This document shows, in pieces, positions 4,601 to 44,760 of a stretch of DNA of 64,000 nucleotides. Within the stretch, counting starts at the first letter, position 1. The number at the start of each line of letters is the position of its first letter. The DNA comes from Macrocystis pyrifera (Eukaryota; Sar; Phaeophyceae; Laminariales; Laminariaceae). The notes beneath the pieces are model-generated. The model searched no databases and had not been told where the DNA came from. It saw only the letters and a list, made by a program, of their open reading frames with translations. The translations under genes were made by a program, and so were the position numbers. The stretch covers positions 992,001 through 1,056,000 of the forward strand of contig JASSKH010000031.1 in assembly GCA_031763025.1 (NCBI GenBank). Reading direction: 5' to 3'.

Positions 4601-5560
4601 AGAGTAGACGATGCAATGCCACGTCATCATACATACTGGATGCGACAGGCAGGACATACACATTCTAGGAGAGATGTAACAAAAGAGAGAAACAGAAAGA
4701 AACAACACACATAAAACCGAAAACGAACGAAAACGCAAAATGAAAAACAATAGAAAATATGTCATGCCTCCCCTCAGGAGATGTGGCAGCCACTTGACAA
4801 GAACGAGCTGAAGAAACAACACTACTTCTAATAGTAGAAAAAAACGGTTTAATGTGAAGAACACACACACTATCTATGATCAGAGTAAGACTAAGAACTA
4901 AGGGAAAAAATAGGCAAATCGAAGCACAAAGCACCCTCCAGGTAGCCGCAGTAGCTTGTTTGTGGTACGAGTAGCATAGATAGCCAGGTTTTCCGTACTA
5001 TTATAGTCGGTCTGGTTCCTAGCTACCCTGCCTGCCGTCTCCGTCCTGCGTTCGTCAACTATGCCCCATCCCTGGAGAGGATGCGTCAGACAATACGAAA
5101 CAAGCAAATCAGGCTCGCCATCCACCCACGCCACACGACTCCTTTCATTAGAACAAGAAGAAAGGAAGATGCAGAAATAAAAAGAAAATCACAAAATCAT
5201 GGAGGATCAAGCGCAAAAAGAAAAAGACGAGAAAGAAAAACCACGTTCGAACCGACTGCAGCAGTTGGCAGCACGAGTAGCATAGCCATGTTCTACTTAC
5301 TGTATATACAGTAGGCCTGGTGCCTTGCTACCCTGTCTGCCGTCTGCTTTCTACTTTCATTCACCGCGATTTCCCTTCTACTCCTCCTGTTGCCCCCCCA
5401 TTCCCTTGGTGGAGTTTCCTTCCATTCCTCATCCCCCCCCCCCCCCCCCCCCCCTCCCCCTCCCCCCATTCCCTTGGGCACTACCCACGGCCGCGGATGC
5501 CCGGCGCTTCCTACTCAGCTGTGCGATATGTACTCTGTGAATGACCTGGTGTAGTACAGG
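4601..5560 (+). repeat. Dispersed repeat R1, copy 3 (3' shortened)
   Basis: Direct repeat of copy 2, adjacent and in the same orientation, so copies 2 and 3 form a tandem pair. It includes the CACCCTCCAGGTAGCCGCA landmark at about 4,932 and the GTGCCTTGCTACCCTGTCTG landmark at about 5,320. A run of 22 C lies at 5,433-5,454, where the other copies have short C-runs. The conserved GGCTCGGAACTCC segment of copies 1 and 2 is missing. Confidence 0.7.
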
Positions 5561-6642: not shown

Positions 6643-9600
6643 GTGAGGGTAGTTTTATTCGTACCTGGTACTTCGTATACCTGGTATAAGACATGGATAA
6701 ATATACAGCAGTAATGACGGTCTGGAGAATAGCCGCGTGTGGTTTGGGGGAAGGGGGGTGTACTCGTTGTCATGCATGGCCGTGTTCGTATGACCATAGA
6801 ATTTTGCACCCGTACACAGCCGGGACGGAGCACGTCCGGTTTTCGCCGAACATGCAGACATTGAGATAGCACCAAGCGCAAAGCGCCGCGCGGTTTTCGG
6901 CGAGTCGCACGAAGGGTGAGCTGCATCCTATATATACGAAGAATCGCTTGTGAGGCGGACATTCTTGAATATGAATGACAGCGTCGAATTAGTTGATTTG
7001 TTTTCCGGTGTGGCCACTTCTAGAGATAGCTATGAAGGAGCGGGGGGAGTACTGAAGAAGGGAGGGGGGGGGAGATGTTGAAGGGGGTGGGGGAGGGGAT
7101 AGTGATTGTTCATCAATGCGTACTTGTGCTTGGGGAGGAGCTATGACGCGGCTGCTGTTGTAACTGCTGCTTTCTGCATTTATTATATGTTACACCCGGA
7201 CTAAACTTACCAATGTAATTTTTTGTGTTGGATATCGTGATTTTTCCGAGATACAGCAGTGTATCGAGTATTGAACTTAGTACCCCTAGGTATATCGTAT
7301 ATCGATACACGCACGTATTACTGCTGTGTCGAACGATCGCTTTCGATATGTCGACAGATCTTGTCGACCGCGTCTTGCCCTCCACCCCATTGCATTCCCG
7401 TTGTTATTTTACATGTACTGTAGTTATGCATGTACTCTGTACGACTAAAGTTGTTTTTGGACGTACGTGTATACCTGGTAATATTATTGTTTGTCGGCAT
7501 CACCTTATTGCTTTGTATTCTTCCATATGAACGAGCAAGGCAATCGGCGGAAGCCGCTAGTGGGGCGCAGTGGCTTGTATATCTCTCTTGTACATTCCTG
7601 CTTCTCATTCGGGGGCTGTAGACTTCAATATTGCTGTCGTTATTATTATTTAAGAATGAATCACGTCAAGGTGATGTACCTGCGCCGACAGCTGTAATCT
7701 GTCAGCCGCAAGTTCGTCCGAAGCGGTCGAGAGTGTCTAGCTTAAAAGCTTTTCGACGGAATTGTTCACATGCTCAAGTTTTGCAATTGGCAAGTTTTGT
7801 AGGCTGGGTGCGATAGTTTTGGGAGATCGTATCGAAACATTCCATATGCTGCATCGAAATATCGAATTTTGAGTGTAGGGTGTAAATAACGAACTCGGTT
7901 TTTGCTCCTTCCCCTGGCGCTCATCTCCGTATTTGTTTTTAGCCGATCCTAAACCAAGCGTTTCAGCGAACTTACCCATTTCCGATCAAGCTTTGAAATC
8001 GTACATATCGCTAGTTTTTGTTCCGTTCATCGAGAGTGCATGGAAATCTGTTTTCGTTCGATGCCAACATACCGCCTTTTGCTGGATCAACCTCTCTTGT
8101 TCCAGGAGGACGCGCGGAAGCAGGACGCTGTCCGCCGAAAGGAGGCAGCCAAGAAGCTGGCCGATAGAGCCCACTCTTACAACGCGCGGTTCCAGTCTCG
8201 ATCCGGCCGACCCTCCTCCTCCTCTTCGGGACCCCTCACCAACGGCGTGCGCTCGAGGAGCGTCTCCGGTCACCCTGGAGTTAACGCCGGAAAACCCATC
8301 GGAGGTGACACTGGGCGCAGGCCTGGAGGACACCGTGGAGTCAATGCATACGGCATCGCCGGGGGCGCCGGAGTAGGAGGTCGAGGAGGAGCAGGAGGGT
8401 GCCAGCCGCGGGCGAGGTCCTCCCCCCCCGGCCATGTGCCGCAGCGCGAGCGATACCGGTCAGCGGTTGATTCCGCCACCGCCACTGCCGCCGCCGACCC
8501 CGGCGTCGACACCGACGGTTTTAGGCGTCCGGGAAGCGGAAGCGGGGGTGGGGGGAAATATCCAGGCGGAGGCAAGGGTCGTGGTCGGGGTCAGCCCACG
8601 GTGGGTGCGAAGTCGGCATCTAGTCTAAGGTCGGGGGCGGGGGGCGGGTTCGGGCCCGATGTGGTGCCTACGCGCGGCGCCCCTAGGACTCGATCGGGCT
8701 CGCGGCAGCGGCCAGTGGACGAGACGGTCCGGGCAGGCAGTGACCGCGGTGGTGGTGGTGGTGCTACTGGTGGTGTTGGTGGTGATGGTGTTGGTCCGGT
8801 GGGTGGAGGTAGTGGTGGTGTTGGTGTTGGTGTTAGTGTTCGTGGGGATGGTGGTGGTACTGGTGCCGGTGTTGATGGGTGTGGTGTTGGTGTTGGTGTT
8901 GGTGTTGGTGGTGATGATCTTGGTCGTGGTGGTGTTGGTGTTGGTGTTTCGTGAGGATGGTGGTGGTGGTGAGTAGTGTTTGTGGGGGTGTTGTTGGTGC
9001 TGGCGGAGATGGCGGTGGTGATTATGGTGTTGTGCAGCCCCATGCGGCCACGAAAGGCAGGAGTGTACGTGCGTGTGGGAATGCTGGCGCTGGGCGGCGT
9101 TCTGCCGGGACTGGCGAGAGCCAGAACCCCTCTGGAAGGTGAGATACATCGTATCGACATACCTGGCATCGAACTATTGATAAATCTGAGTGTCGAAATG
9201 CGTTTTTCCCTCCGTTGTCTGGCATCTCCGTGTTTTGTGTTTCCGGCTGAAGGCTGCGACGTAGCTGATATCGATCGAATATCGCAAGTTTAGTATTTGT
9301 TTCTACGCTAGGTATTGTATGGAAAAACATCGTTCGACAGGTACCCGGAGTGAAGTGCAGCGGTTGGATCGATCGAATCGCTCAAACCCCCCCCCGGTAT
9401 CGGCGGGACACAAACAAACACACACAAAACAATAATAGCTGTGCCCGCCGACCACAAGCGCCTCATTTCCCTTTAACACCCCTCCCCCTTCAATGTTCCG
9501 CCCCCCATGTCTTCTGTCTAGACCAACCGGACTCTCCCACGGTACCACTTCTTCTGCGGCCGATAGGCGCAACATGAACTTGGGATCTAGTTGGGGCGCC

Positions 9601-15600: not shown

Positions 15601-18600
15601 GGTAGCGGCGGGTGCGATCGAGTCGGCGGCAGATGATGTGCAGGGAGGATCCGCCGCATCCCGGCGGCCCATCAGTCCCCCCCCCGACTCTCCTCAGGTG
15701 TCGTCTGCAGCGGCTCCGGTGACTCTTCCCGCTAGCCGTCCGTTGGCGGTGGGAAGCGCAACCGACACCATTTCTGCGTCGAGCGACCCCGAGGCAGGTG
15801 CCGTGATCACGATGCGTTCTACTGCTTCGCTACGGGCGGTGGCGGCCGCAGCGGCGGAGGCGGAAGAGGCCTTGCGGTCTGCGTGCAGGTTGGCCTCCCA
15901 CACTGACGGGTTTCGGGCCGGCCGCGGCGGTAGCGGCGACAGCGGTAGGTTTAGCGGCGGCGGTGGCGGCAGCGGTGGGACCGTCGGGTGGGCTACGACT
16001 AGCGGCGGCACGCCTGGTGCTACGAGGATGAGGGCGGTGACAATCAGGCAGAGGCGCGAGAGGGCGGCCGCCGCAAGGTCGCGCGAGCTTCTTCGGCAGC
16101 AAGACATGGAGGCGTTGCTCGCTGGGCCGGAGGACGCGATATCAGATGCGGTGCGCTCGGCTGCTAGGGCGGTCACGCGGAGGGAGACGCACGCTGCGAC
16201 GGCTACGGCAGAGGGCGCCGGCTTACTGAGGGTGGGTGATGGCTTCGACATCATTTCCTTAGACGCCGAGATGGACACGGACGAAGTCTTGTTCGGTGAA
16301 GCTTTTGCAAACGACGGAGAGACGGTGGCGGAGGCGGCCATCGCGTCACTGGCGCCGGTGAGGGAGTGCTCGACCGTCCCCCCCCTCGGACCGGGAAGCG
16401 CCTCGCGTGATGGCGGAGGCAGCACGTCGCGCGACGGCGGGGGCAGCACTACGAGTAGCGGGTCTGACGCGGACGTCGGCAAGGGCGACTCCTCCCGTGA
16501 TGGGCTGGCGGGGCCGGTAACCCTGGCGGCGGGGGCGGCCGCAGGGGGAGAGGGAGGATGCTCTGAGATCGCGGGTTTTGGGGATGCGGCGTGCTCCTCC
16601 GGTGAAGGGCTGTCGGACTCGCTCGGCAGCTATGACAGGGAAATGGAGCAGCTGCGGGAGGAGGTGAGAAAGGGGCACCGCGTGTTCTTTTCGTACAAAA
16701 TAGGTGTTGTAAGTTGAGAGGTCTCCTCTATTTGCCTGTTGGTTTGTTTGCTTGTTTGTTCGGTGCACGATGTTTTTCTTCTGTCCGGAAACGCGTGGAA
16801 GGTCGCCGTTTACGCTATGCGGCGCCGAAAGTGTTGGGGCACCGCGCGGCGGGGTGTTCCTGTTTGGAAGACTTCTTCTTTTATGCAGGGGGTGTGGGGG
16901 AGAGGGGCTTGACTTGGACCAGCTTGCCCGGTTCGAGTCGCGGTGGACACTCGTGAGGTGACCCTTCGGACACGGCTGATCGATCTGACGTTTGGTGCAC
17001 GTAAGCTATTGTGGGAAACCGACAGCGAGTAGACATTTGAGTGGGATACAGTACCCGATTTATGAGTCCGTCGGAACAGGCCAATGCTACCGTTCTCTAT
17101 TACCGAACCACCGCTAGTTCAAGAGCGGTTTGGTGTTCTCCCGGAATGAAGTTGAATCGGGATGTACTTCTGCTTAAGACGCGCACGAGCGTGAAAAGCA
17201 GGTGAAAAGTGAGGTGACCTGTGTAGTTTCAACTTCCGCTGCAAAGCCGGATTTTCCCCTCAGATGAAGTCTGTACTGTTTCATTGTGAGTGCCAAGCCG
17301 AATTTATCGCTCTTTTTTTAAGTGCACGATGGATGCTCTTAAATCGGGTACCCCACTGATGTATACGTATTGCTCGCGACGCAGTGGGCTCGCCAAGAGC
17401 AGGCTCTCAAGGAGAGGGCGGCCGCCGAGCTCGCCGAAATCCAGCTGGACCACTCCCGTGTCATGGAGCAGTCCCGGGTTGATGCGGCACGCCGGAAGGC
17501 CGACCTCGAGAAGATGTATGCGGCTGAGGACGAGGAGATGGAGCAAATCGTTCGTGATGCCGAGGATGAGGCCAGGGCGGCGTTTCAACAGGGCAGAGAG
17601 GACGCCATCAAGGACGCCGCAGACAAGGCGAGAAGGGACGCTGAGTTCGCCGCACGCGACCGGGATATCCACCGCCTCAAAGAGCAGTCCCGGGCTAACC
17701 ATGAGCTGTGGAAGGCGGCGAAGGTCAGAGAGCAGTCCCAGGCTAATGATGAGCTGTGGAAGGCGGCGAAGGACAGGATAAACGCGAAAATCGAGGCGGC
17801 GGTGGATAAGGCGGCGGCGGCGTTAGACTCGGATGGCGTGTCCGACCCGGGACGAGGTGGCGGGAGGAAGGGGGAGGAGGAGGAGGAGGAGGAGGAGGGG
17901 AAGGATAAGGAGAATTTCTGGGGCAGCGCGGCGGTCACTGAGACTTACCTCAGCGATGGAGGAATGTTGAGGACTGTCAGGGATGTTGACGGGCTGGACG
18001 AAGGCGGCCCGTGGTACGCGCGCCGGGGAAGTGGAGGCAAGGCTGGAGAGGAAGAGGTGAACATTTTCTTTCTGTCCAGAGTAGAGGGGGGGGGTTCTCA
18101 TTATCATGCATGGCCGTAGTCGTATGACCATAGACCCTCGCATCCCTACAATGCCGGGACAGAGGACGTCGGGGTTTCATCGACCAGTCAGACATTGCTT
18201 GCACCAAGCGCGAAGCGCCGTGAGGTGTTGGGCGAGCCGCATGAAGGGAGATCTGTATCCTACTAAGAACCGCTTTAAAGGCGGATTTTCTTGCATATGG
18301 ATGATAGCATCAATGCGGGGGGGGGGGGAGATACTCGACTGTCCATGTCTTGGTCGTTAGGTCACCGTTCTGCGCTTTTGTTTTACCTTAGCGGTGCACG
18401 TAGCATGTGCATTAAACCGCAGCAAGCTCTCCTAACCCCCAAGCTGCTTTATGTATGTATACCCTCGCGATGATTTTCGATGTTGGCTATCCAACCCCAA
18501 AGTCCTCCCCCCCCTCCTGCTGTCGCTTTGTCCCGTCCAGGCGACAGTCATGGCGTCGTCGACTCACGAAAGCCAAACTCAATTTATCCCGCGAAAAATA

Positions 18601-23385: not shown

Positions 23386-23435
23386 GGGCGGGGTACTCGA
23401 TATCTTGCATGGCCGTAGTCGTACGTGTGGGGGGG
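23386..23435 (+). repeat. R2 repeat, copy c (short 5' end only)
   Basis: GGGGTACTCGATATCTTGCA followed by TGGCCGTAGTCGTACG matches the first ~50 bp of R2, then diverges. Confidence 0.65.
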
Positions 23436-26352: not shown

Positions 26353-27514
26353 ATGACGAACCCGTAATCGATGATGACGATTGTCGTGAATGGCGATAGT
26401 CATGAGGACATGGTACACAAGTACACAGCACAGGACGCATCGGGGTGTAGCCGAGCGTGTGCATCTGTAGTTAATCATGTCAGTCAGCAGTCAAGCACCG
26501 TCGGTCGTCAAATCGAGCGTGTCAATCGCAAGTTCAGCGCGTCTGTAGTCAAGCGTTTCGGTCAGTAGTCAAGCGTATCGGTAGTTAAAATTCGAGCATA
26601 TCGGTCCGTGAATCTTTAGGGAAAGTTACCGAATATGGTCCGTGAATCTTTAGGGAAAGTTACCGAATATGGGGTTCCAGTGACGCTGCGGTCTTCTGGT
26701 TCGGGTCGGGGTTGTTTTTAGACCAAGCACATTGATCGGTAGTCGAGTGAATCCGTCTTTAATCAAGCGTATAACCGGTCAGCAGCCGAGCGCGTCGATC
26801 GTTTGTCGAATGTATCCGTCGGCAACGGAGCGTGCCAGCCGGTCAGGAGTCGAGCGCAGCGGTCTATAGTCCATCACACCGACAGGTAGGGGGAACAGGC
26901 TTTCTTGTCTGTCTGTCTGATCGTGTCAATTATGGCTGTTTTACAGTGTTGCTGGAGTGAGGAAAGTGTCTACCAGCAGGCCTGAGTTAACATTTATCAG
27001 CAGTAGTAACACTACTGTAGGCAGGGGCCCTTCGCTCTCTTCTAAAACGGATTCTCAAGCTGCTATTGGTGTAATGTGTTGTGTGACAATCTGCTATTAT
27101 TGTAATGTGTTTGTCTTGTTGAGTTTTGCCCCTCCTAATCATCTGAGAGCGTTTGGTCGCGTGTTGTTGTAGCTATCGATAGCAGCGGCTAGCCAGAAAG
27201 TCATGTATGCTCCATTGAGAGTCGTGCTGTGGTTCATGAGGTTATTCCGGGTGGTGCAGTTTTAGTAAAACAGTAAGTAGTCCTTGCAAATATATCTGAC
27301 GGTAGATTGATTGATTGAATACAGTGAATAATTTTCTGGGCAAGAATGATTGACGATGCCGATATTTCCGTCCTGTGTATGATGACGAGAGGGCTGGGTG
27401 CGGTGAGGAAAAACGTTGGCTGGGGTTGGGTTGGGTTGGGTTGGGGAGATGCTGGTCGGGAGGGGGGGTAGGTAAGGTGGGCGAATTGGGAGAAGGGGGG
27501 GGGGCGTACGCACT
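26353..27514. other. Intergenic DNA with short duplications
   Basis: A perfect 35-bp direct duplication (about 26,603-26,670, word GTCCGTGAATCTTTAGGGAA). AGTCAAGCG/AGTCGAGCG words recur irregularly at 26,450-26,880. A TTGGGTTGGGTTGGG tract at 27,420. No gene is supported. Confidence 0.45.
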
Positions 27515-29576
27515 TGTTGCTTGCCTTAGCCATCAGATCATTGACCGCGCATCCCTTTCGAGACGGAGCACCGTTCCTGCTCCTAATAAAGACACCTCCG
27601 ACATTTGGGCGCTCATTACGTCGTTTCGATATATCACATAGAAAGTTTGCTAGTCTTATCCCCTTCCTGTTTCGCCGCCCTAGGATAGCGATCGTTTTAT
27701 CGCTGCTATTCGGTGTATCAAACTTCTCCATGTCACATTCGTCTAATTCCCTCATCTCCTCTTTTACCACATCCCGTTCTTACGTGAGTTAGATTCTCTG
27801 TTGCTTTGCCACACGGGCACACCTGTGCATCTACTTCCTCCTCCCGGCTACTGGTGTACCTCTTTATTCTTTCTGGCAGATCCAGGCCTCCTACACGAAA
27901 TCGCAGTTTCAGCGTTTTCGCCAAGTCCGTTGGGCCGTGCAAATAGGATTTATTTCCCATCCCCTCGCTTAACCCCCCGTTTATCTCTGAGTGCTTCTTC
28001 GATTTCACCTTGTTTCTTAGCGCTAGCTTTTGCTTTCTTCGTATCCTCTCTTCTACTCCTGCCTTGTACCTCCCAAACGTCTGGGCGGGCATCATCTATT
28101 CTTAGTTTCCTCCTACATCCTTCCATACTTTCTAAACTACGTTATCCCACACTATTCCAGTTCGCCCTTTGGTTTCGCTCTCCCGTTCAGCTCCTATCAA
28201 ATATTGCTGGCGACCTCTTTTTAGGCATATTCCTTACTTTCTATTGCCATTTCAACATTATTAGGTCTCTATTTGTCTTGAGTGGATACATTCTCAATTC
28301 TGCTCTTGTTACTGTATTACTCGTCGACTTGACCATCTTGGTACTTTTCAGTTGCTGCCATGTGTGCTGTTTCCAACTGTTTTACGAACTCCGCGTTCCC
28401 TTCCCATGCTTCTGCATATTCTAGTGTTGGTACATTCACATTCATCAGGATGCCTCTCTTGATCCTACTGTGGTGTCAAGGTGCGAGTCTGTAAGGATCG
28501 TACCCATCTTGCCTACATGTGTTTAACCCTTTTCTGTTACTTTTGCCATGTGTGTATCCCAAGAGATTTATTTTCAGATATCTACGCCAAGGTACGTATA
28601 CTGATCTACGATCAGTAATTCATCTCCTTCCCACTTCCAACTGAAGTTTACCGGGTTCACCTCATCTTCGTCACATACAACTTCTGCGCATTTCCTGGCG
28701 TTCGCCGTCACCCTCCATTTCCTAGTGCATTCTAGCGCCTTCTCTATTAGTTTCTGCAATCCTTCGGGTGTTTCTGATATCCCCACGAAGTCCTCCGCGA
28801 ACATCAATCCCGACACCGTGTTCCCCCACTGTTTCTCCCTGCTTTGCTGCGTCGACTGCTACTATCACGTCGTTGATACATATATAATTTGAATATATAA
28901 GGTGGTAACGTACATCCCAGTGCAACGCCTTGTAAAATGTCCGTATGGTTCGATATTTCCCCGTCCAGCACCACAGCACTTCTCGCACATTCTGTCATAT
29001 TTTTCACCATTCTCCACACCTTTCCTCTGATCCTTATTTCCCACAACGTTTCCACAATCCATTTCTCCGTACTGTGCCGTAGGCCTCCTGTACGTCTAGA
29101 GATAGTCAGTGCGTTGTTAGCCCTGCGTCTTCCCTATCCAAGATTATCTTGCTTAATGTGTACGCATGGTCAACGCAGCTACGGTAAACCCTGCTTGCCC
29201 TTCGCTCATTTTGTCTTCCTTCTCCGTCATTGTTCCCGTCCTACAGTTCAAAATCATACAAACTGTTTATCTACTGTGCATAATAGTGTCATTCATCTAT
29301 ATTTCCGCGGATCAGCCTCATTTCCGTTCTTAAGTAAGTCTACTGTATTATTATACTACTCCTTCTTTCCACATCCTAGGTGCGTTCTCGTTTTTCCATA
29401 ACCTGATACGACAAAACTATCATGGTAAACATTCCTTCTCTCCCCTACTTCCCCAATTCATTGTTTATTTGCTCTGCCCCTCCTATCTTTCTATTCTTAC
29501 ATTTAGCTACACACTTTCTAGCTTCTTCCCTTGTGAACTCTCTCTGTAACCCTTCTGAGTCTTCCCTTTCTGACCA
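27515..29576 (-). mobile_element. Degenerate non-LTR retrotransposon (LINE), minus strand
   Basis: Read on the minus strand from 29,576 down: a 5' part homologous to 39,280-39,720 of the plus-strand LINE, then reverse-transcriptase words GLMFAEDFVGISE (the FADD box, with D changed to E) and DQYTYLGVDI, and a C-terminal Cys/His knuckle (VCPCGKATENLTHVRTGCG at about 27,765-27,830). Frames are broken repeatedly, so it is inactive. Its 5' end is cut at 29,576 by the inverted-end element E1, and a second copy of its 5' 450 bp stands beyond E1. Confidence 0.75.
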
Positions 29577-30370
29577 AGGGGGGTGTACTCATTATCATGC
29601 ATGGCCGTAGTCGTATGACCATAGACCCTCGCATCCCTACAATACTGGGATGGAGCACGTCGGGCTTTCATCCACCAAACAGACATTGCTTGCACCAAGC
29701 GCGAAGCGCCGTGAAGTGTTCGGCGAGCCACATGAAGGCTGAGCTGCAACCTACTAAGGACCGCTTGTGAGGCTGATTTTCTTGCATATGGATGACAGCG
29801 TCAATAAATTGATTTATTTTCTGGTGTGGCCACGTCCAGGGACAGCAATGGGTTTAATACAGAACTGCCTCGTGTGTGCCTTACCATATACACACTACAT
29901 GATACGATCATCCCCCTCATACAAAGTTAAGGTTCTCCCCTCGCAGTAATGATCTCAGCCGATCGCCAGCCGTGGTAACCGCAACACAAACAAGAAATGG
30001 TACCGTGGTTGTCTACGCAGCTCAAGTAGTGAGTAGGGGGGGGTGCACGGTACGAGACTCCAACTAAAAAAGGTATCATACCAGGTACCAAACGTGTTTG
30101 CCGTCCGCACTAATTTCAGTATACCGCTCCCGAGTTGCTCCTTTCGTCGAAAATGGAAGACCGACCTTGTCTCTTGTGGGGCTCTCGCGGTCTTTCTACT
30201 GAAATGTTCAAGATGAAGAAAAGGGCCAAGGTGTCAAAACTGCTGGGGGCTTTCTAAAGATACTTGCGTTAGGAGAAGCAGAGGAACCATTAAAGTCACT
30301 ATCCGGCGGGGCAGTAGTACTGTACTATTAGTGGTAGTAGCAGTAACAGAGGTTTACCGAACAGTCAAGG

Positions 30371-30378
30371 TAGTAGTG

Positions 30379-30442
<64 letters not shown>

Positions 30443-30466
30443 TGGCAGTAGTAGTAGTGGTGGTAA

Positions 30467-30520
<54 letters not shown>

Positions 30521-30546
30521 CAATAGTGGTAGTGGTACTAGTAGTA
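30371..30546 (+). repeat. GTA microsatellite in E1
   Basis: About 175 bp of near-pure AGT/GTA triplets. Poly-Val and poly-Thr frames here are artefacts. Confidence 0.95.
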
Positions 30547-30989
30547 GTATAGTACAATAGTAGTATAAAGCTACGGTAGTAGTTGAAAAATCAGTCTTTC
30601 ATGCTTCTTAGTTCTCGATACAGATCTCTCTAGTGGGGGCTACACGACTTGAGATGAAGGCGTGTTTGTTCAAGGTTCATTGGCGACTATCGGATTGAGG
30701 CCCACATGCCGGAACTCCCATCACACAAGAGGGAAAAGGGTAGAGGCCCTCTATTAGTCTCTAGTGAGAGGTATCTCTGGTGCTTATCCAGACAGCCGCG
30801 TACCACGCTGTATAAATGTTCCAACACTAATTCCAAGTAGTTTGTCCCCCAAAAGGTGGTAGAATAATAGGTGAGACAATGTTTGTTTGTCTGCGGCGAC
30901 AATTTCGTAGTTCGGGGCGGATATGGATGGGAACAGACGACCACGAACGCATCTTGTAGGGAAGAGGCAAGTTATATCCGCCGGAGGCT

Positions 30990-31320
30990 GTGTCACGGCG
31001 GGACGGGACGGTAATTCGTCGGTGTCATGGCGGGACGGGACGGTAATTTGTCGGTGCCACGGCGGGACGGTACGGTAATTTGTCGGTGCCACGGCGGGAC
31101 GGGACGGTAATTTGTCGGTGTCACGGCGGGACGGGACGGTAATTTGTCGCTGTCACGGCGGGACGGGACGGTAATTTCCAACGGGAGAGATTTTATCGGC
31201 GGGACGGGAAGGTAAGTAACGACGGTCAGGGATTTTGTCGGCGGGACGGGACGGCCGGACAATTTTGACGGCAATTTTACCGTCCCGTCCCATCCCGTCC
31301 CGCCGTTACCGTCGTTACCG
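30990..31320 (+). repeat. Minisatellite in E1 with inverted end
   Basis: Units of ~32 bp (CACGGCGGGACGGGACGGTA, then ATTTGTCGGTGT). At 31,275-31,325 the same words appear in reverse complement (ACCGTCCCGTCCCATCCCGT), so the array ends in a potential hairpin. The homologous array in E2 is at 36,170-36,500. Confidence 0.9.
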
Positions 31321-33067
31321 TCCCGCCGAAATACCGTGATAAGCCTTGAATCTTTTCGGGGTTTAGGTCGATCGATTTTTCGATTCAGTCACCTTTTTTT
31401 TCGTTTTCGTATACATTTCGCGTTTTTACCGATTCTTAACGTTTTCCCGTAGAGCCTCGTCTTGTTTTTGTGATTGTTCGTATGCGAGCTCGCAGTACAG
31501 CAGTATGGTCCGGAGTTATAGAAGGGGACGCACGTAAAGCACTGCTTGCATACTCGTTTTCGAAGAGTTCATTGTGTTTACCCCATTTTTGTGATTTTTT
31601 CATCGTTTTTATCCGTTTTTCGCGATCATCTCTCTCTGTCTTGAATATTTTCGTATTTTTTCTTGAAGTTTTGATCGATCATTTTTTTCCAGTTTTAGGC
31701 TCCTTTCGTTTTCGTTTTTTTTTTGCCGATTCTTAACGTTTTTCCTCTGTTTTTTCCTGTTTTGGTATTTTTCTCATTCATGAGGTATTTGTTCAGAAAT
31801 ATAAGCTATGGTTGACTATTCGTATGGGTTGTAGAAGGGGGCGCACGTAAAGCACCGCTTGCATGTTGATCTTCGAAGAATTCACGATGTTTACCTCATT
31901 TTTGCGTTTTATCTCGTTATCCGTTTTTTCGCGAATATCTCGCTCAGTTTTTATCATTTTCATTTTTTTGGGGAATTTTGGCCGATAATTTTATTAATTT
32001 ATTTGGCCTTTCTTACCTTTCGTTTTTTTTGCCGATTCTTCACGTTTTTCGTCGCTTTCGTCCGTTTTTGGTATTTTTCTCATCCGATTTGTTCAGAAAT
32101 ATAAGATACGCATGACTATTCGTATGACTACGAGATATCGCGTGTATTCGCGAACGTTTTCGTTCGTAATTATAAGCTACACCAGACATCTTGCATCTTG
32201 CCAGATGAGGGTATTTGTTCAGAAATATAAGACACGCATGACTATTCATATGAATACGAAATATCGTTTGTATTCACGAACGTTTTTTGTTAGTAATTAT
32301 AAGCTACACCAGACATTGACATTTTGCCAGAAAAAGGTATATCATGGCAGAAAACGTACTATATCTTGGGTTCGGTGTGCCCTGTTCACCTCGTTTTATT
32401 TTCTTGTACCGTAAACTGGCAAAAATACACTGGTGTACCGTTTGTTGTGATTTTTGTGATTCGGGCGGACAATGAAATTTCTCCAGAAAACAGTATACCG
32501 CGAAAGAAAACGTCATCTAACTTGCGTTCGATGTACTCTGATTTCCTGGTTTGATTTTTTTTGTACCGTAAACTGGCAAAAATACACTGGTGTACCATGT
32601 TTTTACATTATGTTTACGTAGTGGGACAGTTTTTTTTTTTTTTTTTTGCTCCTAATAGAAACCCTATAACCTAGGGAATAGTTGAATTAATTTATCCCGG
32701 ACGCTTGTAACACTCCACGTTATGAGTGCCTTCTTCCCTTTCGTTCGATTTAGACCGCGGCTAACTCGTCTATTTATTAATAGTACATACAAAGAGAAGT
32801 ACAGAAGAACGCGTAGACGCCCCCCCCCAGAAAACAAATCAATTCATTCGAAGTGGTCGTCCATCGCAAGGTCCGCCGTACAAGCTTTTTTTGTGGGACG
32901 CAGCTCACCCTCCATGCGACTCGCCGAACACCTCACGGCGCTTCGCGCTCAGTGCAAGCAGTGTCTACCTGGTCGGTTAAAACCGGGACGTGCTCCGTCC
33001 CGGCATTGCAGGTATGCGGGGGTCTATGTTCGTACGACAATCACCATGCATGGCATGAGTACACCCC

Positions 33068-33526
33068 GTGTCTTCCCTACCCTGGATTATCTTACTTAAT
33101 GTGTACACATGGTCAACGTAGCTACGGTAAATCCTGCTTGCCCTTCGCTCATTTTGTCTTCCTTCTCCGTCATTGTTCCCGTCCTATAGTTCAAAATCAT
33201 ACAAACTGTTTATCTACTGTGCATAATAGTGTTATTCATCTATATTTCCGCGGATCAGCCTCATTTCCGTTCTTAAGTAAGTCTACTGTAGTATTATACT
33301 ACTCCTTCTTTCCACATCCTAGGTGCGTTCTCGTTTTTCCATACCCTGATACGACAAAACTATCATGGTAAACATTCCTTCTCTCCCCTACTTCCCCAAT
33401 TCATTATTTATTTGCTCTGCCCCTCCTACCTTTCTATACTTACGTTTAGCTACACACTTTTTTGCTTCTTGCCTTGTGGACTCTCTCTGTAACCCTTCTG
33501 AACCACTGTCTTCCCTTTCTGACCAA
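33068..33526 (-). mobile_element. Second copy of LINE 5' segment between E1 and E2
   Basis: About 95% like 29,128-29,576 by eye, same orientation, for example TTATCTACTGTGCATAATAG and AACATTCCTTCTCTCCCC. It lies exactly between the right end of E1 and the left end of E2, so the tandem unit is LINE segment plus element. Confidence 0.8.
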
Positions 33527-34322
33527 GGGGGGTGTACTCATTATCATGCGTAACCGTAGTCGTGTGACCATAGACCCTCGCATCCCTACAATGCTGGGAT
33601 GGAGCACGTCGGGCTTTCATCCACCTAACAGACATTGCTTGCACCAAGCGTGAAGTGTTCGGCGAGCCACATGAAGGCTGAGCTGCAACCTACTAAGGAC
33701 TGCTTGTGAGGCCGATTTTCTTGCATATGGATGACAGCGTCAATAAACTGATTTATTCTCTGGTGTGGCCACGTCCAGGGACAGCAATGGGTTTAATACA
33801 GAACTGCCTCGTGTGTGCCTTACCATATACACACTACATGATACGATCCTCCCCCTCATACAGAGTTAAGGTTCTCCCCCTCGCAGTAATGATCTCAGTC
33901 GATCGCCAGCCGTGGTAACCGCAACACAAACAAGAAATGGTACCGTGGTTGTCTACGCAGCTCAAGTAGTGAGTAGGGGGGGGTGCACGGTACGAGACTT
34001 CAACTAAAACAGGTCACATGCCAGGTACCACACGTGTTTGCCGTCCGCACTAATTTCAGTATACCGCTCCCGAGTTGCTCCTTTCGTCGAAAATGGAAGA
34101 CCGACCGTGTCTCTTGTGGGGCTCTCGCGGCCTTTCTACTGAAATATTCATGATGAAGAACAGGGCCAAGGTGTCAAAACTGCCGGGGGCTTTCTAAAGA
34201 TACTTGCGTTAGGAGAAGCAGAGGAACCATTAAAGTCACTATCCTGCGGGGCAGTAGTACTGTACTAATAGTGGTAGTAGCAGTAACAGAGGTTTACAAC
34301 AGTATAAGTAGTAGTGGGGGGG

Positions 34323-34377
34323 CAGTAGTAGTAGTAGTAGTAGCAGCAGCAGTAGTAGTAGTAGTAGTAGTAGTAGT

Positions 34378-34411
<34 letters not shown>

Positions 34412-34425
34412 CAATAGTAGTAGTG

Positions 34426-34471
<46 letters not shown>

Positions 34472-34528
34472 CAATAGCAATAGTAGTAGTAGTAGTAGTA
34501 GCAGTAGTAGTAGTATTAATAGTAGTAA

Positions 34529-34582
<54 letters not shown>

Positions 34583-34750
34583 CAGTAGTAGCAGTAGTAA
34601 TAGTAGTAGTAGTATAGTAGTATTAGTAATAGTAGTAGTAATAGAAGTAGTAGTAATAGCAGTAGTATTAATAGTAATAGTAGTAGTAGTAGTAATAGTA
34701 GTAGTAGTAGTAGTAGTAGTAGCAGTAGTAGTATAGTATAATAGTAGTAT
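34323..34750 (+). repeat. GTA microsatellite in E2 (expanded)
   Basis: About 430 bp of imperfect GTA/GCA/ATA triplets, more than twice the length of the E1 tract, showing expansion since the duplication. Confidence 0.95.
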
Positions 34751-34755
34751 AAAGC

Positions 34756-35216
34756 ATGGCATGCACCGCGTGATTCTCCGCAAAATACTTTTCCATAGCG
34801 GAGTTTACCATCATCGCGCGGTCTTTGACGGATGTTTCACCGCCCTGCTTTTCATCGCGCCTCATTGAGAGAACGCGACGCAAGTCCGCTGCCGCCCGCG
34901 AGGTGTCAAATCTGTTGCTGGTGGTTGTGTAACCAGCGTGCTGCCTAACAGCGTCCAACAACTCCGAGGCGGTCATCGTAGTCTGATGCTTGTAAAATCC
35001 CTCAAAACACCGATGAATGTAATTGGGGATAAGCTGGCCCATGCTCACTTTGGAGTGCTGAACCACCCCCTGAGCGTTGGCGAGCTGCAGCCGTTCCTCA
35101 TAATCGAGGTACGCTGCGTAAAAAACACGAGAGGCCTGCTCGGTCCACACCTCTCCGTATTTCGGTGGAGTCAGAGACTCCCCTACCACCAGCGGCGTGC
35201 TTGCCGTGTGCGCCAT
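34756..35216 (-). pseudogene. gag-like ORF, 3' truncated
   Basis: Minus-strand ATG at 35,216. About 153 codons of balanced, helix-rich sequence before the insertion boundary, after which the frame only reads GTA-repeat DNA. No protease, integrase or reverse transcriptase accompanies it. The family assignment rests on the adjacent LTR-like leader. Confidence 0.45.
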
Positions 35217-35654
35217 AATCCACAGCAGTCCACCTGGACTCTACTGTAATAACGGAGAAACTGCCGCCTGACCTGTGCGTCCTCCAGCTCCCGGAGCGTC
35301 CTCCCCTGCTGTGCGCTTCAAGCCGTTTCGATCCGTCCAACGGGCCAACTGCCTTCCCAGCTGTGACCCAATACTCCGCAGCCGAAAACTCCTCCAACAG
35401 AAGTTCCGCGAATATCTAGATATTATGGCCTCTGCCAGATGATATCAGCAAGAGGGCTTCCAGCGAGGGACTCCACCAGTCTCGCTGGCCTCGCACTCAG
35501 TAAGTCTTGTTCTTAGAGCTTGTATTATCACGGAGTGATCCTCATCGGACCACGAGCCAGGTGGCTAGGGGACATCACACAGGATCCCCGGCCACTGCTC
35601 CACTCACACATGCGATTACACTGAAACCTCCACGGCTTGGTATCTTTTGGCTAC
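34756..35654 (-). mobile_element. Truncated LTR-retrotransposon insertion (LTR-like leader plus gag-like ORF)
   Basis: Absent from E1: the uninterrupted site is AGTATAAAGCTACGGTAGTA at about 30,563. In E2 the insertion is flanked by AAGC on both sides (34,752-34,755 and 35,655-35,658). On the minus strand the first ~215 bp look like an LTR (start GTAGCCAAAAGATACC, end near TTGCTGATATCA), followed by TCTGGCAGAGG, a possible primer-binding site. A reading frame then starts at 35,216: MAHTASTPLVVGESLTP, FYAAYLDYEERLQLANAQG, HRCFEGFYKHQTTM, about 153 residues, ending abruptly at the insertion edge. Its composition and position suit a gag N-terminus; this is inference, no zinc knuckle is present. 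Confidence 0.6.
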
Positions 35655-35695
35655 AAGCTACAGTAGTAGTTGAAAAATCAGTCTTTCATGCTTCT

Positions 35696-35804
35696 TATTA
35701 CGGAGGTCCATAGTTAATAGGACCTATGGTATACATGAAAACCTATATATTTACCTTTTTTTACTAACAATATTTGGTCCTATTTGCTATGGTCCCCCGG
35801 AATA
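35696..35804. mobile_element. TA-flanked MITE, copy 2 (with proven empty site)
   Basis: A 105-bp element (35,698-35,802) with inverted ends TTACGGAGGTCCATAG and CTATGGTCCCCCGGAA. E1 has the empty site at about 30,605: CTTCTTAGTTCTCGATACAG. In E2 this becomes CTTCTTA, element, TAGTTCTCGATACAG, so a single TA was duplicated on insertion. Confidence 0.95.
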
Positions 35805-36169
35805 GTTCTCGATACAGATCTCTCTAGTGGGGGCTACACGACTTGAGATGAATGCGTGTTTGTTCAAGGCTCATTGGCGACTATCGGATTAAGGCCCACA
35901 TGCCGGAACTCCCAATCACAACAGGGAAAAGGGTAGAGACCCTCTAGCGAGAGGTATCTCTGGTGGTTAGCCAGACAGCCGCGTACCACGCTGTAAAAAT
36001 GTTGAAATACTAATTCCAAGTAGTTTGTCCCCCAAAAGGTGGTAGAATAATAGGTGAGACGATGTTTGTTTGTCTGCGGCGACAATTTCGTAGTTCGGGG
36101 CGGAAATGGATGGGAACAGACGACCACGAATGCATCTTGTAGGGAAGAGGTAAGTTATATCCGCCGGAG

Positions 36170-36500
36170 GCGGTGTCACGACGGGACGGGACGATCATTT
36201 CCAACGAAAGAGATTTATCGGCGGGACGAGACGGCAATTTTTTGGTGTCACGGCGGGACGGGACGGTAATTTGTCGGTGTCACGGCGGGACGGGACGGTA
36301 ATTCTTCGCTGTCACGGCGGGACGGGACGGTAATTTGTCGGTGTCACGGCGGGATGGGACGGTAATTTCCAACGGGAGAGATTTTATCGGCGGGACGGGA
36401 CGGTAAGTAACGACGGTCAGGGATTTTGTCGTTGGGACGGGACGGCGGGACCATTTTGACGGCGATTTTACCGTCCCGTCCCATCCCGTCCCGCCGAAAT
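36170..36500 (+). repeat. Minisatellite in E2 with inverted end
   Basis: Same CACGGCGGGACGGGACGGTA units as in E1, with the inverted CCGTCCCGTCCCATCCCGTC word at 36,470. Confidence 0.9.
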
Positions 36501-38261
36501 ACCGTGATAAGCCTTGATTTTTTTGGGTTTTGTGGTCGATCGATTTTTCGATTTAGTCGCCTTTTTTTTCGTTTTCGTATACTTTTCGCGTTTTTTACCG
36601 ATTCTTAACGTTTTCCCGTAGAGTCTCGTCTTGTTTTTGTGATTGGTCGTATGCGAGCTCGCAGTACAGCAGTATGGTCCGGAGTTATAGAAGGGGACGC
36701 ACGTAAAGCACTTCTTGCATACTCGTTTTCGAAGAGTTCATTGTGTTTACCCCATTTTTTTTGCGATTTTTTCATCGTTTTTATCCGTTTTTTTTTTTTT
36801 TTTCGCGATCATCTCTCTCTGTTTTGAATATTTTCGTATTTTTTCTTGGATTTTTGATCGATCATTTTTTTCCAGTTTTAGGCTTTTTTTCGTTTTCGTT
36901 TTTGTGCCGATTCTTAACGTTTTTCCTCGGTTTCGTCCGTTTTTGGTATTTTTCTCATTCATGAGGTAGTTGTTCAGAAATATAAGCTACGACTGACTAT
37001 TCGTATGAGTTGTAGAAGGGGACGCACGTAAAGCACCGCTTGCATGTTGATTTTCGAAGAATTTACGATGTTTACCTTATTTTTGCGTTTTTTATCTTTA
37101 TCCGTTTTTTTCGCGAATATCTCGCTCAATTTTGATCATTTTCCATTTTTTGGGGGAATTTTGGTCGATAATTTTACTTATTTATTTGGCCTTTCTTAGC
37201 TTTCGTTTTTTTTTTGCCGATTCTCGTCGCTTTCGTCCGTTTTTGGTATTTTTCCCATCCGAGAGGAATTTGTTGAGAAATATAAGATACGCATGACTAT
37301 TCGTATGAATACGATATATCGCTTGTATTCACGAACGTTATGATTCGTAATTATAAGCTACACCAGACATTGACATTTTGCCAGAAAAAGGTATTTGTTC
37401 AGAAATATAAGATACGCATGACTATTCGCATGAATACGAGATATCGTGTGTATTCACGAACGTTTTTTGTTCGTAATTAATAGCCACACGAGACATTGAC
37501 ATTTTGCGAGAAAAAGGTATATCATGGCAGAAAACGTCATGTATCTTGGGTTCGGTGTGCCCTGATTACCTCGTTTTATTTGCTTGTACCGTAAACTGAC
37601 AAAAATACACTGGTGTAACGTTTGTTGTCATTTTTGTGATTCATGCGGATAATGAAAATTCCCCAGAAAACAGTATACCGCGACGGAAAACGTCATCTAA
37701 CTTGGGTTCGGTGTACTCTGATATCCTGGTCTGATTTTTTTTATACCGTAAACTGGCAAAAATACACTGGTGTACCATGTTTTTCCATTTTGTTTAGTGG
37801 GACAGTTTTTATTTTTATTTTTGCTCCTAATAGACACCCTAGAGGTAAACCTAGGGAATAGTTGAATTAATTCATCCCGGACGCTTGTAACACTCCACGT
37901 TATGAGTGCCTTCTTCCCTTTCGTTCGATTTAGACCGCGGCTAACTCGTACATTAATAGTACATACAAAGAGAAGTACAGAAGAACGCGTAGACGCCTCC
38001 CCCCAGAAAACAAATCAATTCATTCGAAGTTGTCATCCATCGCAAGTCCGCCGCACAAGCGGTTTTTCGTGGGGCGCAGCTCACCCTCCATGCGACTCGC
38101 CGAACACCTCACGGCGCTTCGCGCTTAGTGCAAGCAATGTCTGCCTGGTCGGTGAAAACCCGACGTGCTCCGTCCCGGCGTTGCAGGTATGCGAGGGTCT
38201 ATGTTCGTACAACGACCGCCATGCATGGGATGAGTACACCCCCCCCTCCCCCCCCCCCCCC

Positions 38262-38879
38262 TCGCTCGTGATGCCAAAATTGCTTTTAGTGGCCATTCAA
38301 TGCTCGTACTGCTATCCCATGCCCACTTGCCAACTTCTTAATAAAAGTGCTGGCAAACACGGGAAAATCTTCGACGCCATGACTGCACAGCCATCCCTCT
38401 GGTGTCCCCTGGCATCGAGCGGCCTTCGATGTTCTGCTTGCTATCTGATCAGCGAACCGAAGGTCGCGAACGCTTCAACAAGCCAAGCCTCTGCCTACAC
38501 GTGGTACAGAGAGGGTCTCCAATACCCCAAGGGAGCACGCGGTTGGCCCTGATGGGCGCATCTTGAAAAGGCCGGAGCGTTCTCTGGTGTTGGTGATGTC
38601 TGCGTCGCCACCCGTGACGCGTGGGATGCGGGTATGGTAGCACGTGTCACAACAACCCAAGTACAATTCGTAAGGAAGTTGACGGAATCGCACCTGAAAC
38701 CGAAAAAACTAGAAAGAAAAAACGGGATGGGCAGGGGAGCACAACAAAATGATGGAAAAAAAACGACCCCACACCCCCAAAAAGGTCATTTGGTGGAAAA
38801 ATCAAAACCGGCGGGCGGAATTTCTGCATGAAACGGACAAAAACTTGTTAGTTTTTAGTTTTTTTTAAACTTGCTTTTA
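38262..38879. other. Unassigned DNA between E2 and the plus-strand LINE
   Basis: Short frames only. It begins CTCGCTCGTGATGCCAAAAT after the C-run. It contains no recognised repeat or coding segment; the A-rich end near 38,700-38,870 may be the LINE leader. Confidence 0.35.
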
Positions 38880-40455
38880 GTAAAACCCCACCATCGAGAA
38901 AAACCACGACAGGATGGGAGGAATACTCAATAGCTAGAAAGAATGTGAAGAGATGATAGAGAAGAAAATGAAAAGGATACGGAAAGACGTAGTAAAACGA
39001 AACGAATGAAGACTTTGAGGGCAGGATGAAGCAGATGTGGGTAGGGATAAAAGGGATACTGGGCAAACAAGCAGGAGAGGCAGACACGGGAATAGCTACC
39101 GCAAGAGCATAGAGGGGTAGAATGGTATGGTGAGTAGTTGGAAGGGGAAAAGGGAAGTACCAGGTACTAGTAAAGCACTACCGAATGCCAGGAACACCCA
39201 CAGCCAACGAAACGTTCGACGCAGAATTCGAGAAGGAAATCAACGCGTGGACAATGGCGAACGTAGATGCATCAGGAAGGGAAGACAGTAGTTTAGGAGG
39301 GTTACAGAGAGAGTTCACAAGGGAAGAAGTAAATAAGTGTGTAGCTAAACTTAAGAATAGAAAAGCAGCAGGAGCAGACCAAATAATGAATGGATTTATG
39401 AAGTACGGGGGAGAAGGAATGCTTACCATGATGGTTATGTTGTATAACTGGATATGGGAAAAAGAGCACGCACCTAGGAGGTGGAGAGAAGGAATAGTAG
39501 TAAACTTATTCAAGAAAGGAGAAAATACTGACCGGGGGAACTATAGCGGGATGACGCCACTACTGTATCTGAGCACAGAAAGCTAACATTTTGTAAGATT
39601 TTGAACGATATAATGGGAACAAGGATGAAGAAGGAAGACAAAATAAGCGAAGGGCAAGCAGGGTTTAGGCCAAACCGTAGCTGCGTAGATTATGTTGTAC
39701 ACCTTAGGTCAAGGACAATCCAAGGTAGGCAACACGCGGGACTAAAAACGTACTGTTTCTTCTAAGATGTACTGAAGGCCTACGACACAGTGTGGAGAAA
39801 AGGAGTGTGGAGAAAACTGGGAAATAGGAATCAGAGGAAAGATGTGGAGAAGGATGAAAAAGATGACGGAACGTGCGAGAAGTGCTGTGATGCTGGACGG
39901 GAAAATATCGAAGTATGTTGATAGTTTACGAGGAGTTGCGCGGAGATGTACATTGTCACCTAACCTATTCAAGATATATATATTATTAACGACCTGATAG
40001 TAGCAGTCGAGGCAGCAAGACAGGGAGTCACGGTAGGGGACGATACGGTATCGGGGTTGATGTTTGCGGATGACTTTCTGGGAATATCAGAACACCTGAA
40101 GGATTGTAGAAAAACATTAGAGAAGGCGCCAGAGCACACCAGGAAACGGAGGAAGACGGCGAACGTCGAGAAATGCGCAGTAGTTGTTTGTAACAAAGAT
40201 AAGGTAAACCCTGTAAAAATTTCAGTTGCAAGTGGGGAGAAGATGAATTGCCGATCGTAGACCAGTATACATACCTTGGCGTAGAGATCTCAAAAGACTG
40301 CTCTTGGGGTACACATATAGCAAAAGTAATAGGAAAGGGTAAAGCCCACGTAGGCAATATGGATACGATCCTAACAGACTCGCACCTTGACACCAGGATT
40401 ATGAGAAGCCAGCTTCGTTGCCTTGCCGTTCAGAGGTGTGGGAGTGGGTTTTGAG
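38880..40455 (+). mobile_element. Non-LTR retrotransposon (LINE) with broken reverse transcriptase
   Basis: Reverse-transcriptase words occur in canonical order across shifting frames: KNRKAAGADQI and WREGIVVNLFKKGENTDRGN (39,350-39,545), QAGFRPNRSCVDYV (about 39,655), DVLKAYDTVWR (about 39,763), RRCTLSPNLFKIYI (about 39,940), GLMFADDFLGISE with the catalytic Asp pair (about 40,057) and DQYTYLGVEIS (about 40,260). Stops and frameshifts separate them, so it is dead. The minus-strand LINE at 27.5-29.6 kb and the fragments at 12.7, 22.0 and 58.1 kb belong to the same family. No endonuclease domain is recognisable upstream. Confidence 0.85.
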
Positions 40456-43870: not shown

Positions 43871-44760
43871 GCCAGATGCACACCGAGACAGGAGGGGTAG
43901 AGGGAGACGGGCGGCAGAATGAGCCTGGCTCTTCAGCTCTTGCCCGCAGGTGCGATTACCTGCTGCTGAGAGCGTGCGACTGGACAACTCGCTGTTGTAG
44001 GTATGATACCTATTACGGGGGGCCATAGTAAATAGGACAAAATAATACTAGTAAAAATAGGTAAATATATGGGTTTTATGTAAACCATAGGTCCTAGTAA
44101 CTATGGACCCCCGGAATACCTAATAAATACCTGGTATACAGTATAATAGTAGATATCCGCTGCCAATTTCCCCCAGGTAGACGGACCGAGGGAGGCAGTT
44201 TTGTGGTCACATACGTGCTCTGTATGTGGTGTGTGGTCACGTACGTGCTCGGTGTAAGGTGTGTGCTGTACGTCAAAGGGCTAGGTGAAACATATATGAC
44301 TCTCGACACTCGACAGACGTATCTGATGCTGCTGTACCTGCTGCTGCTGCTTTGGTTGTTGATAAACAACCAAACAGGAAAAGGGCGGGGGATATCACAG
44401 TTATTGAGATTTGAGATTTTCATTGCAGAGAAAATTCATCGTTTCTGGAAGTGTACACAGCTCGTCGTATTGGCAGTCGGGCAGCGTGGGCTGTACGCGG
44501 TGCCGCACAGAGACAGGGGGCAGTACGGTCAGACGGGAGGCAGTATGGGCCTGGCTCTGTGGCTCTTGCCCGTTGCGATTACCTGCTGCTGAGAGCGTGC
44601 GACTGGACAACTGTCTAGGTATGCCACCAACACCTAGATACCTGTTGTCAATGTCTCCCAGGTACAGGCAAACGGAGGGAGGCAGTTTTGTGGACACGAA
44701 CGTGCTCGGTGATAGGTGTGCATCACTCTTCAAAGGGCTGGTGCAACAGATACGGTGGCC
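43870..44760 (+). repeat. Direct ~620-bp-spaced duplication
   Basis: The blocks GATTACCTGCTGCTGAGAGC, GTGCGACTGGACAACT and GGGAGGCAGTTTTGTGG occur first at 43,956, 43,974 and 44,190, and again at 44,577, 44,595 and 44,676. The first copy is interrupted by the MITE at 44,013. Confidence 0.7.
44011..44116. mobile_element. TA-flanked MITE, copy 3
   Basis: A 102-bp element (44,013-44,114) with ends TTACGGGGGGCCATAG and CTATGGACCCCCGGAA between TA dinucleotides. It is the inverted orientation of copies 1 and 2 judged by its interior (GTAAACCATAGGTCCTAGTA). Confidence 0.9.

Follow-up and report, generated by a model that had tools for sequence, protein, structure and literature searches.

A tandem segmental duplication in a Macrocystis pyrifera contig, with units ending in two opposed, probably LINE-mobilised R2 copies in G/C tracts

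The window, by which we mean the whole analysed stretch of 64,000 nucleotides, contains two units in direct tandem (positions 29125-33067 and 33068-38261), each consisting of a 450-bp LINE piece followed by a region that is bounded by inverted copies of a repeat, R2. Direct and inverted repeat comparisons confirm what the preliminary description had reported, namely a LINE segment plus an inverted-end element, present twice in tandem. The features are as follows.

6758-7041, minus strand: dispersed R2 copy between G6 runs
18095-18316, minus strand: dispersed R2 copy between G9 and G12
27495-27504: G10 tract bordering the minus-strand LINE at its 3' end
27505-29577, minus strand: non-LTR LINE, 5'-truncated and decayed, with an RT remnant (RVT_1 below the curated cut-off)
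29125-33067: first tandem unit, made up of LINE piece, R2 left, interior and R2 right
29584-30035, minus strand: R2 left (unit 1; about 452 nt), bordered by G6 (29578-29583) and G8 (30036-30043)
30044-32819: interior of unit 1, with GTA array, 85-bp dispersed repeat, GC minisatellite and T-rich tandem duplications
32829-33063, plus strand: truncated R2 right (unit 1; about 235 nt), bordered by C9 (32820-32828) and C4 (33064-33067)
33064-33068: unit junction, at which the C-tail of R2 right meets the LINE, with CCC microhomology
33068-38261: tandem unit 2
33533-33975, minus strand: R2 left of unit 2
34752-35654: insert unique to unit 2, 903 bp, AAGC at its flanks
35698-35802: MITE-like insert unique to unit 2, imperfect inverted ends, TA at its flanks
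38005-38238, plus strand: R2 right of unit 2, followed by C8-T-C14 (38239-38261)
57619-58008, minus strand: dispersed R2 copy between G7 and G8

The duplicated LINE piece is the right-hand 450 bp of the longer LINE copy, and its two occurrences (29128-29577 and 33071-33526) match at 95.8%. Counted over ungapped columns, the units are 95-97% identical in the left part up to position 30985 without the GTA array, 89% identical within the array, and 90-93% identical to the right of 30985, save for 96.6% at 32641-32820. In unit 1 the dispersed 85-bp repeat (30901-30985) adjoins the 32-bp GC minisatellite. The inverted-end elements themselves, E1 and E2, measure about 3.5 and 4.7 kb, E2 owing its extra length to the 903-bp insert, the MITE-like one (about 105 bp) and more extended GTA arrays. 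Inverted R2 copies do lie at both borders, as had been described, but the uniform end length of about 250 bp given earlier does not hold, the left copy having about 452 bp and the right copy about 235 bp. A left end at about 270 nt was considered and rejected, as the homology with the copy at 57619 runs on to the G8 tract. The earlier statement that the elements contain no transposase agrees with the three open frames tested inside the units, none of which gave a match in Pfam.

In the 537-Mb genome to which the window belongs, R2 occurs as dispersed, discrete units of about 520 bp; one end of the family is constant, the other variable and truncated. The retro-sense strand terminates in ...GAGTAC(A)CCCC, and a signature pattern of the family, absent from 100 shuffles, matches the window five times. 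Eighteen loci outside the window locus and its paralogue, a non-random set comprising the best-scoring of 40 scored places among 2849 candidates, include 11 copies near full length (503-520) and 7 truncated ones (225-316), with the constant end placed identically to within 4 nt at all of them. R2 looks like a LINE-dependent, SINE-like non-autonomous retroelement. Its consensus contains only weak A/B-box-like matches and no convincing Pol III pair. No Rfam family reached its gathering score in the window, and of two R2 copies searched singly one gave two weak sub-threshold matches and the other none; a structured RNA was rejected as an identity for R2 on these grounds, and because four pieces of one copy folded no better than shuffles. 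Two exact patterns had no matches in viral contigs. Two matches in genome contigs (L001 and L002) are bacterial and were taken as chance.

The LINE is a non-LTR retrotransposon as judged from the relatedness of its predicted reverse transcriptase: a related copy (L023) passes the RVT_1 cut-off (E=2e-10), and the best PDB matches, with E from 5e-5 to 2e-4, include an R2 retrotransposon protein and ORF2 proteins of LINE-1. The constant ends of R2 and the LINE have about 75 nt in common, with a score of 44 against a best of 37 in 1000 mononucleotide shuffles. The LINE copies seen are all decayed, and neither a full-length copy nor an endonuclease was found. The LINE as the target into which the inverted-end element had inserted was considered and dropped, as no 5' part of the LINE resumes beyond E2 in the minus orientation.

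Both ends of R2 adjoin homopolymer tracts. At the 18 loci, truncated copies included, a G-run of at least five was observed at the constant end in 17 cases and at the variable end in 17, compared with 3.7% of random flank positions, and R2 right has C-tracts on both its own sides. In a wider set of 45 R2 copies (one row at the end of a stretch dropped), the constant end is present in 39; an outer run of at least five was found in 30 of these and an inner run in 35. Three of the nine outer-run misses come from a subfamily that has about 18 additional nucleotides ahead of the run, and six are true shortfalls. Among these six are unit 1's R2 right, with 4 C, and both R2 copies of the paralogue, the left one with 3 G and the right one with 3 C. 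The picture is similar for LINE hits extending to the constant end, with a G-run of at least five within the preceding 25 nt in 10/13; one of the others has four, and the remaining two, which are mutual paralogues, have three. The paralogue reads AAGATGGGTG at the junction of LINE and R2 left, with no clean G-run, which makes insertion of this particular LINE into that tract less secure. Since the flanks are homopolymers, a strict test for target-site duplications is barred, and untemplated addition of G or C could mimic flanking runs.

It is in fact conceivable, if unlikely, that the element itself makes the G/C tracts, by slippage of its tail at one end and untemplated nucleotides at the other, and that the tract is not a chosen target. 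The tract at the constant end is sometimes very long (37 G at L021) and varies between paralogues, which speaks for such a process. On the other hand, neighbouring LINE and R2 copies meet at a common tract, and an empty site already has its C-tract. The latter comes from a filled/empty pair: an old paralogue has a 530-bp R2 at C213:705643-706172, between CCA-C17 and C13, and the window at the equivalent site has C8-T-C14 alone, with the same older R2 on one side and the same right flank (TCGCTCGTGATGCC) on the other. In principle this pair could instead reflect loss of an R2 by recombination between C-tracts.

We infer target choice and retrotransposition of the LINE/R2 pair from these patterns, and the following course of events would account for them. 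R2 would be mobilised by a non-LTR LINE with the same 3' end, the C-tail of the RNA pairing with a nicked G-tract and priming reverse transcription (target-primed reverse transcription). Incomplete reverse transcription would give 5' truncations that likewise end in the tract. Each insertion would leave a G-tract at either side, where further LINE and R2 copies could land and build up head-to-tail chains; the pair of minus-strand LINE and R2 left probably represents such a chain. Later, the segment that starts within the LINE and extends as far as the C-tract beyond R2 right would have been duplicated in tandem through the CCC-microhomology junction, the G/C tract being a plausible fragile site. 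Very probably, then, E1 and E2 are tandem copies of a local segment that ends in two independent, opposite R2 insertions, R2 being LINE-mobilised and inserted in G/C tracts. Somewhat less firmly, we favour the wider proposal that the LINE and its 520-bp partner insert specifically into poly(G)/poly(C), keeping or enlarging the tract and creating two new landing sites each time, which would give self-feeding head-to-tail chains of LINE and R2 copies, perhaps tens of thousands across the genome, and a genome rich in long G-tracts.

That the duplication is local, and that its unit is wider than the supposed element, had been considered in the preliminary description and is now well founded. The breakpoint lies inside the LINE, and the complete unit junction has one full-length match among 40 scored places in the genome, namely the window itself. 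Single-unit paralogues lie at C213:1.10 Mb and C213:1.075 Mb, the latter rearranged. These observations support a tandem segmental duplication that extends beyond the supposed element and exists in a single copy in relatives. The accompanying suggestion of unequal crossing-over, in contrast, was not upheld. At the junction the C-tail of R2 right is joined to the middle of the LINE with 3-4 C in common; it is non-homologous with CCC microhomology, and hence did not arise from unequal crossing-over between repeats.

Homologous exchange as the origin of the tandem pair is accordingly improbable, although it fits a later event. The paralogue's single unit (Ep) changes from E1-like to E2-like within R2 right, at about 32.9 kb, as homologous contraction would have it. 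In the interior (30576-32820) E1 and Ep agree at 97-99% and E2 is the odd one out, with 90-97% identity to E1 or Ep; over the final 165 bp of R2 right it is E1 that differs from the other two. We read this as the probable trace of an old tandem duplication, after which the paralogue contracted, with differences in rate, gene conversion and assembly error as possible alternatives. The paralogue's flanks are 93-98.5% identical on the left, in 2-kb bins, and about 93.5% on the right. The paralogue identities do not give a clean dating.

The preliminary description had also proposed a foldback-type transposon family in which R2 would be the terminal repeat and solo R2 copies solo termini. E1 and E2 do resemble foldback or long-TIR DNA transposons superficially: inverted R2 copies stand at both borders of both units, and the interior has no recognised transposase, none having been seen in the three frames tested. 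They differ in that the interior piece searched is not dispersed as a constant unit and the ends are independent insertions, and we regard the proposal as highly improbable. A genome search with 386 bp of the interior came out against it. Of 40 scored places (512 candidates), four match this piece at full length, all on one contig, C213, the other 36 being three partial matches on C213 and 33 hits to the 85-bp dispersed repeat. The interior is likewise absent within 1.5 kb of the 18 R2 loci, save for a T-rich repeat of about 90 bp (L013) and simple-sequence matches of 18-21 nt (five loci). The two ends of a unit (79.5% identical in unit 1, 80.4% in unit 2) are no closer to each other than other R2 pairs are (77-88%). 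R2 left clusters with the dispersed copy at 18095 (support 0.77). R2 right, flanked by its own C-tracts, is truncated relative to R2 left, and no target-site duplication surrounds the unit, whose outer flanks on the plus strand are a G-run on the left and a C-run on the right. In the old paralogue, parts of the interior are present together with R2 right and the right flank, but R2 left is missing at the edge of the interior; a partial R2 lies 2.2 kb to the left of that interior. Dispersed copies of R2 form discrete units. A copy standing alone is the element itself and not a remnant terminus.

Penelope-like elements can carry inverted terminal repeats. That R2 is a pseudo-LTR of such an element, possibly in inverted orientation, is a most improbable reading: these elements are reported in Ectocarpus (PMC12477816), but the constant end of R2 is common to a non-LTR LINE, and RT is absent from the three open frames tested inside the units.

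In LINE/SINE partnerships a non-autonomous element bears the 3' end of its partner LINE. R2 agrees with this arrangement, and differs in having a C-tail at its constant end and no recognised head from a known RNA (no Rfam match). Target-specific LINEs are known for genes and microsatellites. Partnerships with common 3' ends have been described (PMC3747384), as has Togen, a microsatellite-specific non-LTR retrotransposon in (TG)n (PMC4640811). Judged by that account, Togen-type elements share with the present LINE the LINE type and a simple-repeat target; here the target is a G/C homopolymer tract and the preference is shared with a non-autonomous partner. The closest description is that of RTEX-N1_Ec32 from Ectocarpus, a very abundant non-autonomous element of about 600 bp with a 3' end common to autonomous LINEs and an unproven Pol III promoter (PMC12477816). 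R2 resembles it by description, being short (520 versus about 600 bp), abundant, without a proven Pol III promoter and with a LINE-shared 3' end, and may be its homologue; the passages on RTEX-N1_Ec32 in that report make no mention of G-tract insertion. New here is a LINE/SINE-like pair lying in G-tracts, which it would choose as targets and enter by retrotransposition.

If true, the pair would offer a simple system in which to study tail-target pairing in retrotransposition, with a target regenerated at each insertion and common to LINE and partner, and G-homopolymer targeting would help to account for the long G-tracts of this genome. It would also call for caution with 'TIR elements' that are recognised in such genomes by their inverted repeats, since these may in fact be paired retroelement copies. 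As to the two inserts that set unit 2 apart, a 190-aa open frame overlapping the 903-bp insert had no match in Pfam, and the MITE-like insert has relatives elsewhere in the window, at 850-977 and 44001-44118.

As the preliminary description had claimed, two tandem units with inverted R2 ends are present at 29.1-38.26 kb of the window (unit 1, 29125-33067; unit 2, 33068-38261). Each consists of a 450-bp LINE piece, a copy of the dispersed repeat R2 (R2 left), an interior, and a second, oppositely oriented R2 copy (R2 right). Both interiors contain a GTA array, a 32-bp GC minisatellite and T-rich tandem duplications, and two inserts are present in unit 2 only, one of 903 bp and one, MITE-like, of about 105 bp. 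The units are 95-97% identical up to 30985 when the GTA array (89%) is excluded, and 90-93% identical to the right of this position, but 96.6% at 32641-32820. The inserts and their relatives are:

34752-35654, unit 2 only: 903-bp insert with AAGC on both flanks
35698-35802, 850-977 and 44001-44118, and 5221-5331 of the fetched stretch L049: a small MITE-like family whose inverted ends are imperfect

The unit 2 copy of the MITE-like family has TA at its flanks. A minus-strand open frame (190 aa) that overlaps the 903-bp insert has no Pfam match, and the insert itself matched nothing but itself in the window and the fetched loci compared.

The suggestion that the R2-bounded regions E1 and E2 (of units 1 and 2) represent a mobile element, with R2 as terminal repeat and a constant interior at other loci, did not hold in a genome search with one 386-bp interior piece (30600-30985). 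Full-length matches among the 40 scored of 512 candidates were confined to C213, the contig of the window (E1, E2, C213:1076619 and C213:1099677), and three partial matches lay on the same contig. Interior pieces were also absent within 1.5 kb of 18 dispersed R2 loci, save a T-rich repeat of about 90 bp at L013 and simple-sequence matches of 18-21 nt at L010, L014, L019, L020 and L021. Moreover, R2 left and R2 right are only 79.5% and 80.4% identical in the two units, no closer to each other than to dispersed copies (77-88%). The other 33 scored places matched only the 85 bp at 30901-30985 adjoining the GC minisatellite, a separate dispersed repeat family housed in the interior.

The duplication is local. 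A 121-bp query across the unit junction found, among 40 scored of 921 candidates, a single full-length match, the window itself; the other 39 matched the LINE side only, beginning at query position 25-31, inside or just past the C's common to the R2 tail. The LINE in the paralogue reads TAGTCCCGTGTC and the unit junction ACACCCCGTGTC, and there is therefore a microhomology of 3-4 nt at the junction. Fragility of the G/C tracts may have caused the tandem duplication.

Window ~3145-40683 and C213:1095121-1127927 are the two copies of a large segmental duplication in inverted orientation, 93-98.5% identical on the left (2-kb bins) and ~93.5% on the right. The latter copy (1.095-1.128 Mb) holds a single unit, with an E1-like interior and the last 165 bp of R2 right E2-like, a switch that fits homologous contraction from two units; its left part (LINE piece, R2 left) has a mixed E1/E2 pattern. 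A further copy holds one unit without R2 right:

C213:1072002-1079591 (1.072-1.080 Mb): third, partial segmental copy

R2 itself is a dispersed family with G-tracts at both ends. Within the window the copies have one end in common, where TGTACTC or a slight variant of it follows a G-run; the other end varies from copy to copy. Copy 18086-18331, searched against the genome from which the window comes (537 Mb in 223 contigs), gave 2849 first-look candidates, of which 40 were scored, with 42 matches; the best 20 were fetched, and removal of the window locus and its paralogue left 18 loci. These have no sequence in common outside the element, save other R2 copies or unanalysed stretches (L006, L014, L016, L019, L021, L022). 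Among these best-scoring loci the family length is about 520 bp, with 11 near-full-length (503-520) and seven truncated copies (225-316). A G-run of at least 5 was present at the constant end in 17/18 and at the variable end in 17/18, compared with 3.7% of random flank positions. The set was then widened to 45 copies, drawn from the window and its paralogue, from stretches bearing R2 and from random ones; it includes paralogous duplicates and loci picked for holding R2, and one stretch-end row was dropped. Of these 45 copies, 39 had the constant end, with an outer G-run of at least 5 in 30 and an inner one in 35. Three of the nine outer-run misses belong to a subfamily with a doubled terminal GAGTACA motif; two short forms, apparently extreme truncations, were also seen:

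L030, L031, L033, L037, L038: longer constant end, about 18 extra nucleotides ahead of the G-run (TGTACTCGATAGGAGAGA or similar ahead of the core)
Window ~23391-23428 (~35 nt) and 59809-59834 (~26 nt): very short R2 ends between G-runs

Eight 5-kb stretches chosen regardless of R2 held four copies, in two of the stretches, a small sample compatible with tens of thousands of copies genome-wide.

A filled and an empty site were found by comparison with an old paralogue on C213 near 703-707 kb, in which matching pieces are 71-85% identical and the interior is covered in parts only. There, an old truncated R2 is followed by CCA-C17, a 530-bp R2 (705643-706172), C13 and the right flank TCGCTCGTGATGCC; in the window, C8-T-C14 alone separates the same old R2 from the same flank, and the extra R2 is missing. 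In a reverse reading, an R2 may have been lost through recombination between the C-tracts. At its left interior edge the old paralogue has G8, and R2 left is missing ahead of this run; interior and R2 right thus occur without R2 left. For R2 left the paralogue does not offer a clean empty site: farther to the left, nothing matched the window beside this edge, and a partial R2 is situated 2.2 kb away.

The minus-strand LINE 27505-29577 has a G10 tract at its 3' end. Thirteen LINE hits in the window and the fetched stretches reach the constant end; several of the stretches were picked for R2, and some hits duplicate one another. Ten of the 13 hits have a G-run of at least 5 within 25 nt before that end, one has 4 G, and two, mutual paralogues, have 3 G. 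R2 and LINE have some 75 nt of the constant end in common (score 44, against a maximum of 37 in 1000 mononucleotide shuffles). A LINE 3' end and an R2 copy are adjacent and equally oriented, with a G-run between them, in L006 (also L029), L017 (also L030; a tract of just 4 G) and L023 (duplicate in L024). In the L023 copy the reverse transcriptase has an RVT_1 match (2e-10), and its best solved-structure matches include an R2 retrotransposon protein and LINE-1 ORF2 proteins. All LINE copies found are decayed, with no endonuclease or full-length copy among them.

We infer that R2 inserts by retrotransposition through TPRT, in which its C-tail would pair with G-tracts, and that it would depend on the minus-strand-LINE family for mobilisation. 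Abundant LINE-dependent short elements, including RTEX-N1, are described in Ectocarpus (PMC12477816), with no mention of G-tract insertion in the parts of that paper covered, and microsatellite-specific LINEs are named in part of PMC4640811. Titles and abstract openings, outside subscription papers and supplements, gave no report of G-homopolymer-specific LINE or SINE insertion.

A second LINE copy borders the tandem units:

38262-40440, plus strand: LINE copy just past the C-tract that ends at 38261

Its relative at L023 6215-8511 is ~92-93% identical and has kept the RVT_1 match.
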